From assembly GCA_017634255.1 (NCBI GenBank), contig JAGBNT010000014.1:1-19354 (forward strand): 19,354 nt of DNA, written 5' to 3'. The notes beneath the pieces are model-generated. The model had not been told where the DNA came from, did not search any database, and saw nothing but the letters and a program-made list of their open reading frames with translations. The DNA is from Lachnospiraceae bacterium (lineage in GTDB: Bacteria > Bacillota_A > Clostridia > Lachnospirales > Lachnospiraceae). The first letter of the stretch is position 1. Each line of letters starts with the position of its first letter. Positions 3,900 through 14,676 of the stretch are shown piece after piece. Both the position numbers and the translations under genes were made by a program.

Positions 3900-4733
3900 T
3901 TAAACTGAAACTTCACCCGTAAATACGGTCTCGGCGGGACCGGTCATAAAGATATCCCCGCTTTCACGAGACCATTCTATGTTTAATTCACCTCCGCGCA
4001 GTATGAGCGTGGAGGTGTTTTCACTTTTTTCATTTAGGACTGCCGCTGCCAGAACGGCGCAGGCACCGGTGCCGCAGGCAAAGGTCTCTCCTGAACCGCG
4101 CTCCCAGACCCTCATTTTAAGATGAGTCCGGTCGATGACCTCCACAAATTCAGTATTTACCCTGTCGGGGAAAATGCTGTTATTCTCAAACAGCGGTCCG
4201 AGCTTTTCGAGCTCAAGGCTGTCGGTATCCGAAACGAAGATTACGGCATGGGGATTTCCCATGGAAACACAGGTTATGAGGTATTCCTCTTCATCAATGG
4301 TTACGCTCTCAGATACTATCCTCTCTCCGGGGAGAGCAACGGGGATGCGGGAGGGCTCAAATTCGGGAGCTCCCATGTTTACTCTTACCGTATCCACCTT
4401 TCCGTCCTTTACATGGAGCTTCAGCGTTTTTATACCTGCCAGGGTTTCCACAGTTATATCTGTCTTGTCCGTAAGAGAGTTATCGTAGACGTATTTTCCC
4501 ACACAGCGTATGCCGTTGCCGCACATCTTCCCCCTGGAGCCGTCGGCATTATACATCTCCATTTCGAAATCGGCTTTGTCGGAGGGATTTATGAAGATCA
4601 TCCCGTCAGAACCGATGCCGAAGTGCCTGTCGCTTAAGCGGATGGCGAGCTCCGGCTTGTTTTCGACCGCTTCCTCAAAGCCGTTCACATATATGTAATC
4701 ATTTCCTGTTCCGTGCATTTTCGTAAACTTCAT
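3900..4733 (-). CDS. dapF: Diaminopimelate epimerase
   Basis: DapF interconverts LL- and meso-diaminopimelate in the cytoplasm, the last step before lysine and the source of the meso-DAP used in peptidoglycan. The 277-residue length is normal. It starts MKFTKMHGTGNDY, the classical N terminus, and carries both catalytic cysteines: one in MCGNGIRC and the other in ETFACGTGACA. I place the start at 4733 rather than at the in-frame ATG at 4751, because AAAGGA sits nine bases before the inner ATG and the outer one overlaps that ribosome site. It is third in the minus-strand operon glnA - ANTAR - dapF, 32 bases after the ANTAR stop, so it should share the glnA leader control. The preceding enzyme of the pathway, DapL, is encoded divergently nearby. 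Confidence 0.95.
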   Translation of the reverse strand: MKFTKMHGTGNDYIYVNGFEEAVENKPELAIRLSDRHFGIGSDGMIFINPSDKADFEMEMYNADGSRGKMCGNGIRCVGKYVYDNSLTDKTDITVETLAGIKTLKLHVKDGKVDTVRVNMGAPEFEPSRIPVALPGERIVSESVTIDEEEYLITCVSMGNPHAVIFVSDTDSLELEKLGPLFENNSIFPDRVNTEFVEVIDRTHLKMRVWERGSGETFACGTGACAVLAAAVLNEKSENTSTLILRGGELNIEWSRESGDIFMTGPAETVFTGEVSV

Positions 4734-4765
4734 CGGAAATAGTCCTTTCATCGCCTCTAATTTTT

Positions 4766-5308
4766 TTACATGATGCGCAGCACCATCTGTGCGGATTCTA
4801 CCATATTTGTGCCTGAATCCATAGATATTTTTTGGAGGTACCGGTGGGCTTCCTCCTCTGACATATCGTTTCTTTGCATTAGCAGGAGCTTGGCGCCGTT
4901 TATGATCTCCTGCTCCTCACTGCTTCTCGCGCGGGGGCGCTCACGTCTCTTCCTGCGCCTGCGCTCGCAGTTTTCTACCATCATCTCGAGCGTATCGACA
5001 AGGTCATTTACCTTAAGAGGCATCTCCAGGCACAGAATACCGGAATCCGTCCTCTCCACGAGACTTGCCCTTCTGGTGACAAGGAGCATGTCGAAGTTTT
5101 CTCCGAGATAGTCCCCAAGCTCATCGTAGAGCATGTCGGGGAACTTGTAGCCGCAGACCACTATGCCGTCGATAATGTCGTCGGCGATGGAAAGAACCTC
5201 GGCACCTGTTGCGGCTGTTCCTATGCAATTAAAGCCGGAGCGGACAAGTATGTCCTTTATGCCCTTTGCCTCAGCGCTCCGGGAAAACCCTACAATGATA
5301 TTTGTCAC
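4766..5308 (-). CDS. ANTAR-domain RNA-binding antiterminator with pseudo-receiver (NitR-like)
   Basis: A 180-residue protein. Residues 1-112 have a response-regulator-like fold (MTNIIVGFSRSAEAKG onward), residues 113-129 are a strikingly basic linker (ERRRRKRRERPRARS), and residues 130-180 are an ANTAR domain (GAKLLLMQRNDMSEEEAHRY and a following helix). ANTAR domains bind paired hexaloop RNA hairpins and prevent transcription termination. The usual phosphoacceptor aspartate is missing: the strand reads VVCGYKFPD, with glycine at that place, so phosphorylation is unlikely. The start is GTG, six bases after the glnA stop, without a strong ribosome site, which suggests translational coupling. 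The arrangement recalls glnA-nitR of Clostridium saccharobutylicum, where an ANTAR protein is linked to glutamine synthetase. A matching RNA target is visible in the glnA leader (6676-6712), so autoregulation of the operon is the natural reading. Confidence 0.9.
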   Translation of the reverse strand: MTNIIVGFSRSAEAKGIKDILVRSGFNCIGTAATGAEVLSIADDIIDGIVVCGYKFPDMLYDELGDYLGENFDMLLVTRRASLVERTDSGILCLEMPLKVNDLVDTLEMMVENCERRRRKRRERPRARSSEEQEIINGAKLLLMQRNDMSEEEAHRYLQKISMDSGTNMVESAQMVLRIM

Positions 5309-6664: not shown

Positions 6665-6701
6665 AAAAAACGCCCGGACAGAATCATTTCCTGCCCGAAC
6701 G
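6665..6701 (-). terminator. Intrinsic terminator (attenuator) in the glnA leader
   Basis: On the minus strand CGTTCGGGCAG (6701 to 6691) pairs with CTGTCCGGGCG (6681 to 6671), 11 pairs including three G-U pairs, around a nine-base loop, followed at once by TTTTTT (6670-6665). It lies between the glnA promoter and the glnA ribosome site, so it must act as an attenuator and not as the end of another gene. Confidence 0.8.
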
Positions 6702-6712
6702 CCTTTGTCCGA
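6676..6712 (-). promoter_or_regulatory. Candidate ANTAR-target RNA: two hexaloop hairpins in the glnA leader
   Basis: Read on the minus strand, P1 is CGGAC-AAAGGC-GTTCG (6711 to 6696): five pairs, one of them G-U, with a possible sixth U-G pair, and a six-base loop with A at position 1 and G at position 4. P2 follows directly: GGCAGGA-AATGAT-TCTGTCC (6695 to 6676), again a hexaloop with A1 and G4, with one bulged G (6690) in the 5' arm. This two-hairpin, A1/G4 arrangement is the published recognition pattern of ANTAR antiterminators. P1 takes up bases that form the 5' arm of the terminator at 6665-6701, so the two folds compete. The ANTAR gene lies in the operon that this leader controls. The fold was done by hand. 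Confidence 0.75.
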
Positions 6713-6720
6713 TTGCAATG

Positions 6721-6749
6721 AATATATCAATCGCGGAGTGCGTTGTCAA
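6721..6749 (-). promoter_or_regulatory. Strong sigma-A type promoter of the glnA operon
   Basis: On the minus strand a perfect -35 box TTGACA (6744-6749), a 17-base spacer and TATATT (6721-6726). The start would fall at about 6713-6714, placing hairpin P1 of the ANTAR target at the extreme 5' end of a leader of about 68 bases. Confidence 0.85.
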
Positions 6750-6848: not shown

Positions 6849-8072
6849 ATGTTTACGGTCAATGAGAATTATTTGAAACTGAGAGGCTCTTATCTTTTTT
6901 CCAGCATAGCCAACAAGGTGGCTGCCTTCTCAAAAGCCAATCCGGACGCGGATATAATAAGGCTTGGGATAGGCGATGTTACACAGCCCCTTACCCCTAC
7001 TATCATAAAGGCGCTTCACGATGCGGTGGACGAGATGGGAGACAGGACTACCTTTAAGGGCTATGCTCCCGATCTGGGCTATGCCTTCCTTAGGGAGGCT
7101 ATTGCCAGGAATGATTATGAGGCAAAAGGCTGCAGCATAGCTCCCGATGAGATATTCGTTTCCGACGGAGCCAAGTGCGATTCGGGCAACATACAGGAGC
7201 TCTTTGGAACAGATAATATCATTGCGGTGAGCGATCCCGTCTATCCGGTGTATGTGGACACGAACGTGATGGCGGGGCGGACCGGAGACTTCGACGAGAC
7301 AAATGAGCAGTGGAAGGATGTGGTATACATGCCCTGCACCGCTTCGAACGGCTTTGTTCCGGAATTGCCGGAGAAGACACCGGATATCATATATATCTGC
7401 TCCCCGAATAATCCCACGGGGGCGGCTTTAAAAAAGGCTGAGCTTCAAAAGTGGGTGAACTATTGCCTCGATAAAAAGGCGGTGATAATCTTTGACGCGG
7501 CATATGAGGCCTATATAAGCGAGGAGGACGTCCCCCATTCCATCTATGAATGTGAGGGTGCGAGGAATTGCGCTATCGAGATAAGGTCCTTTTCAAAGAA
7601 CGCAGGCTTCACAGGAGTGCGTCTGGGCTTTACAGTCATCCCCAAAGATCTTAAGGATCAGAAGGGAACTTCCCTGCATTCTTTATGGGCGAGAAGGCAC
7701 GGGACAAAGTACAACGGAGCCCCCTATATCATCCAGAGGGCAGGGGAGGCAGTCTACAGCGAAGAGGGACAAAAGGAGATAAAGGGTCTGGTGTCGTACT
7801 ACATGGACAACGCAAAAATGATCCTCGAGGGGCTTAAGGGCGCGGGCTTTGAAGTCAGCGGAGGAGTGAACGCTCCGTATATCTGGCTTAAAACCCCGGA
7901 TAATATGTCCAGCTGGGACTTTTTTGACTATCTCCTCGAAAAGATAAATATTGTCGGAACTCCGGGTTCCGGCTTCGGACCCAGCGGTGAGGGGTATTTT
8001 CGCCTGACGGCGTTCGGGAGCCGCGAGAATACCGAAAGAGCCGTGGAGAGGTTTAAACGCCTGAATGGCTAA
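6849..8072 (+). CDS. dapL: LL-diaminopimelate aminotransferase
   Basis: A PLP enzyme of fold type I that converts tetrahydrodipicolinate directly to LL-diaminopimelate with glutamate as amino donor, bypassing the succinylase and acetylase routes. Its 407 residues are normal for DapL. The N terminus ([19 protein letters not shown]) and the [15 protein letters not shown] segment are typical of DapL rather than of aspartate aminotransferases. The cofactor-binding set is present: SPNNPTGAA (185-193), D216 in FDAAYEAY, and the Schiff-base lysine K250 in [15 protein letters not shown]. The ATG start has AAAGGAAG just upstream and its own promoter. Its product is the substrate of DapF, encoded in the divergent glnA operon, so the two DAP steps flank one regulatory region. 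Confidence 0.96.
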
Positions 8073-13236: not shown

Positions 13237-14676
13237 ATGAGGGAAAAATTAAATACGTTACCGCTTCTACAGCTGAGGGAGCTTGCAAAAGCCAGGGGTT
13301 TAAAGGGCATCTCGACCATGAAAAAGGCAGAGCTTGTGGACATTTTGTGCGCCGAGAGCGAAAAGGAGGAGGCAGCCGAGGTTAAACGGAGCGCCCCTGT
13401 GGAGCAGGAGAAGACCAAAGAAGGGGCTTCGCCGGCGGCAGAGAAGAGCCCGGAAAAGAGCCTGGACAAGGCTCCGGAAAAGGCTCCTGAAAAGGGAAGC
13501 GGCGAGAAAAAGAGCGCAGACAGCCAGAGCGCATCAGATAAGGACAACCTCGATTCGGGAAATATCGCCAATGGTATATTGGAGGTAATGGCTGACGGCT
13601 ATGGCTTCATAAGGTGCGAAAACTATCTGCCCGGGGAAAATGATGTTTACGTTGCGCCGAGCCAGATAAGGCGCTTTAATTTAAAGACCGGAGATATAAT
13701 CGTCGGAAATATAAGGATAAAGACCCAGAATGAAAAATTCTCCGCTTTATTATATGTAAAGACTATCAACGGACTCCATCCTAATGAGATAGAAGACAGG
13801 ATGAATTTTGAAAATATGACTCCTATCTTCCCGAACGAGAGGATAAGGCTGGAGACCGGGGACGGAAATCTTGCAATGCGTATCATGGATATCATCTCTC
13901 CCGTAGGAAAGGGACAGAGAGGAATGATAGTATCTCCGCCCAAGGCAGGAAAGACGACCCTTTTAAAGCAGGTGGCAAAATCCGTGACTAAGCTAAATCC
14001 CGATATCCACCTTATAATCCTGTTAATAGACGAAAGACCGGAGGAGGTTACGGATATAAAGGAGTCCATAGAGGGAAAGAATGTGGAGGTCATCTATTCC
14101 ACCTTCGACGAGCTTCCCGAGCATCATAAGAGGGTCTCCGAGATGGTCATAGAGAGGGCGAGGCGCCTTGTAGAGCTGCACGAGGACGTTATGATACTTT
14201 TGGATTCCATTACAAGGCTTTCGAGGGCATATAACCTTACGGTTCCTCCTTCGGGACGGACGCTTTCGGGAGGTCTTGATCCGGCGGCGCTGCATATGCC
14301 AAAGAGATTTTTCGGTGCGGCTAGGAATATGAGAGAGGGAGGCTCCCTTACCATACTCGCTACAGCCCTGGTTGAGACCGGAAGCAAGATGGACGACGTC
14401 ATCTATGAGGAATTTAAGGGAACGGGCAATATGGAAATGGTGCTTAACAGAAAGCTTCAGGAAAAGAGAGTGTTCCCGGCTATAGATATACAGAAATCCG
14501 GCACCAGAAGAGATGATCTTCTCCTTGGAAGGGAGGAGCTGGAGGCTACGGACATTATCCACAAAGCAATAAACGGGATAAAGCCGGACGAGGCGGTGGA
14601 GCATCTGATAGACCTCTTCAGCAAGACCAGGACCAACAGGGAGTTCATAGAGTTTGTAAAGAAGAGAATGGTTTAA
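13237..14676 (+). CDS. rho: Transcription termination factor Rho
   Basis: A 479-residue RecA-like hexameric helicase that releases untranslated RNA from RNA polymerase. Residues 4-40 form the Rho N-terminal SAP-like domain ([15 protein letters not shown]). Residues 41-110 are a charged, low-complexity linker rich in Lys, Glu, Ala, Pro and Ser with PEK/DKAPEK repeats. The cold-shock RNA-binding domain starts at about 113 ([14 protein letters not shown]). The motor has Walker [11 protein letters not shown] (234-243), Walker B LIILLIDE (259-266), [11 protein letters not shown], the Q-loop [10 protein letters not shown] and the R-loop region [17 protein letters not shown]. All catalytic parts look intact, so it should be active. 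The start ATG has GGAGGA just upstream. Length exceeds the 419 of E. coli because of the linker. Confidence 0.97.

Follow-up and report, generated by a model that had tools for sequence, protein, structure and literature searches.

A probable single-hexaloop attenuator of the ANTAR type in the glnA leader of a Lachnospiraceae bacterium

The short leader of the glnA operon on contig JAGBNT010000014.1 of a Lachnospiraceae bacterium raises the question whether glutamine synthetase is controlled there by an ANTAR-type antitermination switch, and whether one hexaloop hairpin may take the place of the two described for such systems. The window denotes in the following the whole stretch of 19,354 nucleotides that was analysed. 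As far as the available portions of the respective papers go, both hexaloops are necessary in the EutV system (PMC3369931; PMC8934654), the linker between the two hexaloop hairpins is given as about 5-12 nt (PMC3369931), leaders of glutamine synthetase and glutamate synthase genes have already been described as dual-hairpin targets of ANTAR control (PMC3369936, PMC3369931), and the role of single hexaloops is left as an open question in the structural work on EutV (PMC8934654), the one paper among those listed that mentions a single hexaloop in connection with ANTAR. A search of the literature outside subscription papers, preprints and supplements yielded no description of a single-hexaloop element; some of these leaders might already appear, assigned to the dual-hairpin motif, in the supplements of Ramesh 2012. 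The features concerned are the following.

6721..6749, minus strand: promoter TTGACA-17-TATATT, with the -35 box at 6749-6744 and the -10 box at 6726-6721
6695..6712, minus strand: hexaloop hairpin P1, TCGGAC[AAAGGC]GTTCGG, with the loop at 6706-6701; proposed ANTAR site and antiterminator
6665..6706, minus strand: intrinsic terminator with pentaloop AAUGA and six T, formed by an 18-bp stem of 6706-6689 with 6683-6666
6680..6691, minus strand: GGA[AATGAT]TCT, a 3-bp hairpin proposed as second hexaloop in an earlier sequence-only reading; judged non-functional as a hexaloop
5315..6646, minus strand: glnA, type I glutamine synthetase of 443 aa (TIGR00653, 504.9 bits; PF00120/PF03951)
4766..5308, minus strand: gene of an ANTAR protein of 180 aa (PF03861)
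3900..4751, minus strand: dapF, the third gene (TIGR00652)

The order on the minus strand is thus promoter (6749-6721), leader, glnA, ANTAR gene and dapF, and the earlier assignment of the second gene of the operon (4766-5308) to an ANTAR protein is borne out by its PF03861 match (56.0 bits versus a cut-off of 27.3, E 3.4e-15). The promoter TTGACA-17-TATATT is present as claimed, with a spacer of 17 nt and a TG ahead of the -10 box, but agrees with the consensus in 11/12 bases and is hence not fully "perfect", as it had been called. The position of the -10 box suggests a transcription start near ~6714. In the same window, dapL (6849-8072, plus strand) diverges from the glnA leader, and the encoded Rho protein (13237-14676, plus strand) has 479 aa, about 60 aa over its family profile of 413.

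The first hairpin of the sequence-only reading was recovered at 6712-6695, its loop AAAGGC carrying both A1 and G4, and so was the terminator ending in six T, the 18-bp stem of which overlaps the six-T run at 6670-6665. For the 69-nt leader from about 6714 to glnA, a minimum free energy of -26.3 kcal/mol was calculated versus -13.9 kcal/mol (sd 2.36) in 200 shuffles, none of which was as good (z -5.25), and the one 18-bp terminator dominates this fold; a pattern scan for terminators with a loop limit of 8 did not have the window terminator in its list. It had also been proposed that P1 takes bases which the terminator needs, and indeed the loop plus the 3' arm of P1 are identical to the 5' arm of the terminator, which begins exactly at AAAGGC. 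The two structures are therefore mutually exclusive, and one hairpin could be enough for a switch. As calculated for a 55-nt leader, the fold with the terminator reaches -23.7 kcal/mol versus -11.6 kcal/mol with P1 (5 bp) enforced, and the enforced fold keeps an apical hairpin at some distance from the U run.

Related leaders were compared in a set of 79 elements, which was prefiltered for R-A-N-G in the loop and for closure of this loop by C-G, is uninformative on the conservation of those letters and probably includes chance elements (e.g., L107 +2999 and L132 +2992). A promoter scoring at least 8/12 precedes 64 of the 79, the median gap between -10 box and P1 being 9 nt, which places the beginning of P1 some 2 nt past the likely start in these promoter-bearing elements. 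The layout of the window, where P1 starts ~2 nt past the predicted start, was thus described correctly, but it is the rule among the relatives and not "unusually minimal".

The second A1/G4 hexaloop of the sequence-only reading did not survive this comparison. GGA[AATGAT]TCT as a 3-bp hairpin comes to +0.4 kcal/mol, the preferred fold of the 21-nt apical segment, at -8.9 kcal/mol, has the pentaloop AAUGA, a form with the apical hexaloop requires a bulged G and reaches -5.2 kcal/mol, and the hexaloop is not kept in the relatives. We accordingly regard it as unlikely that the leader is a classical dual-hexaloop ANTAR element, in which AATGAT would form on a bulged stem upon contact with the protein and both hexaloops would be needed, as in the eut, nas and ami systems, even if AATGAT has A1 and G4, its bulged form is predicted at the energy given above, and the 3-bp form results in a linker near the published length (about 5-12 nt in the available text of PMC3369931). 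The Desulfocucumis glnA leader L020 does show two such hexaloop hairpins in the identical by-eye scan, which also indicates that the scan is able to detect them. The pentaloop form, however, is better by 3.7 kcal/mol, the apical segment is at most 12 nt long in 26/79 elements, and folding of the downstream parts with P1 removed gave an A1/G4 hexaloop in a single one of the 79. Upstream, A1/G4 hexaloops within 60 nt occur in 2/79 elements, below the mean of shuffles (4.35), and the predicted start is as a rule too near to P1 to leave room for another hairpin.

A loose 3-bp A1/G4 hexaloop can be drawn downstream in 12/79 elements, which exceeds mononucleotide shuffles (mean of 2.8 and maximum of 9; the window element was scored with six extra downstream bases), but 7 of these 12 sit in the 3' arm of the terminator, mirroring P1. 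A second hexaloop in that 3' arm was considered as a separate candidate and rejected: A1/G4 is present there in 43/79 elements, and closure by at least 3 bp in 11 compared to a permuted mean of 11.5 gives no sign of selection. What stands of the proposed ANTAR antitermination switch is therefore the hexaloop hairpin overlapping the terminator, whereas the two-hairpin motif does not, as only one hairpin is conserved.

A view on the leaders of glnA genes encoding related proteins (best 80 of 584 confirmed loci, with the leaders viewed for 47 of them and the window) shows in many cases the arrangement GAAC[RAGGGC]GTTC, behind which come an arm that can pair with the loop plus 3' arm and a U run. 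Among the 15 loci whose GlnA is closest in identity to that of the window, the ANTAR gene lies directly behind glnA in 14, and the element is found upstream of glnA in eight (L001, L004, L005, L006, L008, L010, L011 and L012, the element of L005 having 3 bp only); the leader of L003 contains a weak candidate (E 0.057), and no element was seen upstream of glnA in the other six. The genomes of L002, L003 and L005 carry an element ahead of a gene for glutamine synthetase III (loci L145, L136 and L140). A gap-free alignment was made of 16 leaders, hand-picked from the 47 loci and the window; earlier whole-leader MAFFT alignments had set the 3' arms wrongly and were discarded. The closing C-G pair, A2 and G4 of the loop are invariant in the 16 leaders, and position 1 is occupied by A or by G. 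The condition under which the sequence-only reading was to be refuted, related leaders that do not conserve A1/G4, thus received a mixed answer: G4 is present nearly everywhere, but A1 is sometimes replaced by G, as in the glnA leaders of L004, L006 and L012. The loops of these three, GAAGGT and GAAGAC with G1 and G4, may represent a drift of the recognition signal. The terminator helix of the 16 leaders has 90.4% of its cells paired, a value reached by 0/500 shuffles, with changes on both sides in 9/13 pairs, and P1 has 96.9% paired (12/500 shuffles as high).

A covariance model of the 16 leaders (R1), which takes letters and terminator pairs into account but leaves the pairing of P1 unscored, was run over an order sample (295 genomes from the order to which G008, the Lachnospiraceae MAG containing L010, belongs) and a class sample (245 genomes of the class of G015, the Clostridium sp. 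MAG containing L033), which overlap by a few genomes; 200 genomes of the class of G548 (Brevibacillus, with L028) served as control. Matches were obtained in 94/295 genomes of the order sample at E 0.01 and in 44/245 of the class sample at E 0.001. P1 has at least 4 bp in 101 of 109 non-overlapping matches, compared to a mean of 64.4 and a maximum of 75 in 1000 permutations of the 3' arms, where the 109 stem from 94 sources and leave out four element-less loci, so that the fraction may be read as 101/~113; a 6-bp P1 is present in 37/109 (permuted maximum 23). The 109 matches comprise 106 distinct sequences, and a few come from near-identical genomes. Position 4 of the loop is G in 108/109 and position 1 is A in 107/109, letters which R1 favours, and A2, G4 and the closing C-G pair are nearly invariant. 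With mirror matches included (135 matches), 77.3% of the P1 cells are paired versus 34-48% when slid, 107 cells are changed on both sides versus at most 56 in controls, and the covariation score of P1 is 0.381 versus at most 0.157 in controls; in the same 135, neither the count of pair types nor that of changed pairs is higher than in shuffles or controls. At gathering score, no Rfam family matched in the window or at the elements of 26 related loci, and a TwoAYGGAY RNA (RF01731) at 5017-5180 (minus strand) of L010, away from the element, was the lone Rfam match. Locus L165 contains two complete single-hexaloop attenuators in tandem ahead of an ATP-grasp gene (1516-1427, minus strand).

The presence of the element is connected with that of an ANTAR gene. 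In the order sample, such a gene is found in 60/64 genomes with an R1 match at E 0.001 versus 142/231 without (P 1e-7), and in the class sample in 42/44 versus 82/201 (P 3e-12), with P values that ignore kinship; no ANTAR match was obtained in the remaining 4/64 and 2/44 genomes carrying an R1 match. At E<=1e-3, at least 20/64 genomes of the order sample have an ANTAR gene downstream of the element, on its strand and at most 12 kb away, and among the matches listed the gene is never upstream. The distances cluster at about 1.8 kb, which is the glnA arrangement, and at 6.7-6.9 kb. For the class sample with the four shared genomes removed, the gene is downstream in at least 11/40, with one match just behind an ANTAR gene, and for the order sample at E 0.01 in at least 28/94, with at least six matches just behind one. 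The elements at ~6.8 kb (G044, G058, G090, G100, G136 and others, corresponding to L128, L112, L110, L123 and L116) head an operon which opens with the amidotransferase of a split glutamate synthase.

Another RNA-binding protein or a ligand might read the loop of a nitrogen-regulon attenuator, with the co-occurrence of ANTAR genes being phylogenetic. This alternative, which has in its favour that the co-occurrence tests disregard kinship and that 142/202 ANTAR genomes of the order sample are without an R1 match at E 0.001, seems rather improbable to us, as the linkage in operons occurs in two arrangements in the order sample (~1.8 and 6.8 kb), the loop and closing pair fit the published ANTAR signature, and the element matches no Rfam family in the window or the 26 related loci. 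Moreover, an ANTAR match is present in 19/20 genomes of the first loci and is the only one in 18 of them, even where it is encoded away from glnA. Thus, G016, G017, G018 and G020 have ANTAR, dapF and dapL together and away from glnA, which retains the P1 hairpin. The three genes stand in a row in L093-L096, ANTAR and dapF adjoin in L098 and L099, and the sequence of L097 ends after ANTAR; a gene pair of lysine/peptidoglycan metabolism (dapF, dapL) appears to travel with the nitrogen regulator.

R1 proved unspecific, matching in 31/200 genomes of the Brevibacillus class, and P1 was therefore made a separate criterion, the loci showing it being called strict. These amount to 23/27 and 28/30 in the two Clostridia samples and to 4/20 of the loci fetched in the Brevibacillus class (51/57 versus 4/20, P 2e-8), from which it follows that P1 tracks the elements of Clostridia and not every terminator found by R1. 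A constitutive attenuator, the 5' hairpin of which would only protect the mRNA or reflect chance complementarity to a strong terminator, would be compatible with the terminator-like matches in the Brevibacillus class, but is highly improbable, since the loci of that class mostly come without the hairpin and the pairing of P1, which R1 does not score, exceeds permutation.

The genes at most 1400 nt behind 100 strict elements were labelled by BLASTX to Pfam-identified proteins or by cluster. Genes of nitrogen assimilation or of glutamine use follow 72/100 elements, a count which stands without a background of gene classes and with reference proteins drawn from those loci themselves. They comprise split or full glutamate synthase (26), glutamine synthetase III (18) and I (13), ammonium transporter (amt, 7), asnA (2), asnB (1), CTP synthase (2), NAD synthase (2) and a purF-like amidotransferase (1); outside these 72 are a purB-like lyase (4), others (11) and 13 without label.

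The nearest solved relatives of the ANTAR protein by sequence are EutV (6wsh, E 5e-11) and Rv1626 (1s8n, 3e-9), followed by AmiR (1qo0, 0.003) and NasR (4akk, 0.004). NitR of Clostridium saccharobutylicum may be a further relative. The phosphoacceptor Asp54 of EutV aligns with Gly53 of the window protein (Ser in L017) and the conserved Lys of receivers with Met96 (Leu in L003), and both residues are absent at the aligned places in all 14 proteins compared (the window protein and 13 relatives). Tyr164 of EutV aligns with His155, a His in 13/14 proteins and also in AmiR, and Met172 with the invariant Met163; Arg142, Lys143 and Lys147 of EutV are not conserved at the corresponding positions. Tyr164 stacks on G4 according to the available text of the structural work (PMC8934654). 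As judged from this residue alignment, the loop-facing side of the protein appears to be partly kept and the phosphorylation side lost.

Compared with a dual-hexaloop target, the window contains a first hexaloop hairpin with A1 and G4, the 3' arm of which overlaps the 5' arm of the terminator, here together with the loop, but its second A1/G4 hexaloop is neither conserved nor a stable fold in the window; compared with an EutV-type response regulator, the protein is without phosphoacceptor Asp and conserved Lys. The eut leaders of E. faecalis and their regulator EutV share with it the A1/G4 hexaloop, the conserved closing pair and the terminator overlap as well as, in the available parts of the sources, the ANTAR output domain and the nitrogen theme (PMC3369931; PMC8934654), whereas the window has one hexaloop hairpin, with the loop as well as the 3' arm in the 5' arm of the terminator, and a pseudo-receiver in place of the phosphorylated receiver of EutV. 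AmiR of Pseudomonas aeruginosa likewise combines a pseudo-receiver with ANTAR and has His at the Tyr164 position, but is under the control of AmiC, and P1 and P2 structures are described for the amiE leader in the portions at hand (PMC8934654, PMC3369936). The nasF leader of Klebsiella oxytoca with NasR shows an A1/G4 hexaloop ahead of a terminator and serves nitrogen control, but NasR senses nitrate via a NIT domain, and P1 lies separately upstream with P2 overlapping the terminator, as described in the accessible text (PMC3369936). The BglG/LicT-RAT antiterminators also use a protein-stabilised hairpin to exclude the terminator, but belong to another protein family and recognise RNA in a stem with internal loops, as far as the same text goes (PMC3369936). 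The proposed one-hexaloop attenuator would be a variation on the established dual-hexaloop mechanism.

The competing structures, their conservation, the gene set and the co-occurrence and linkage with ANTAR genes were computed here. Good support for an ANTAR-type antitermination switch comes from the conserved hairpin and its terminator overlap, from the co-occurrence and linkage of ANTAR genes and from the leaders of nitrogen genes, and the glnA leader is very probably a true ANTAR-type attenuator with one hexaloop. We consider it likely that it attenuates transcription through one hexaloop of ANTAR type in the following manner, in which binding by the ANTAR protein, the sufficiency of one hexaloop and the direction and signal of control are what we infer. 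By default, the nascent RNA would form the 18-bp terminator, and transcription would halt ahead of glnA. The product of the ANTAR gene behind glnA, when active, presumably under nitrogen limitation, would hold TCGGAC[AAAGGC]GTTCGG once this hairpin leaves RNA polymerase and thereby remove at least 10 bases from the 5' arm of the terminator. What remains would be a short apical hairpin at a distance of 5-6 nt from the U run, and the polymerase would then read into glnA-ANTAR-dapF. One hairpin would thus act as protein recruiter and as antiterminator, so that the classical second hexaloop would not be needed, and a like element would operate ahead of the nitrogen gene set in many Clostridia. As the receiver-like domain is without the phosphorylation residues, a protein partner or a metabolite probably provides the signal, by analogy with AmiR; in view of GlnR of Bacillus, glutamine synthetase itself may be such a partner.

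With somewhat greater reserve, we lean towards the broader view that these leaders form an undescribed class of single-hexaloop ANTAR antiterminators in Clostridia, mostly under one pseudo-receiver regulator per genome, and that the requirement for two hexaloops is not general; the proposed nitrogen (glutamine) regulon would comprise glutamine synthetases I and III, glutamate synthase, amt and glutamine-dependent amidotransferases. The set of leaders provides many natural cases of a single hexaloop, and that of the window, with ~55 nt, should be easy to test in vitro. The set would also explain how ammonium assimilation is controlled by one RNA-binding regulator in many Clostridia.
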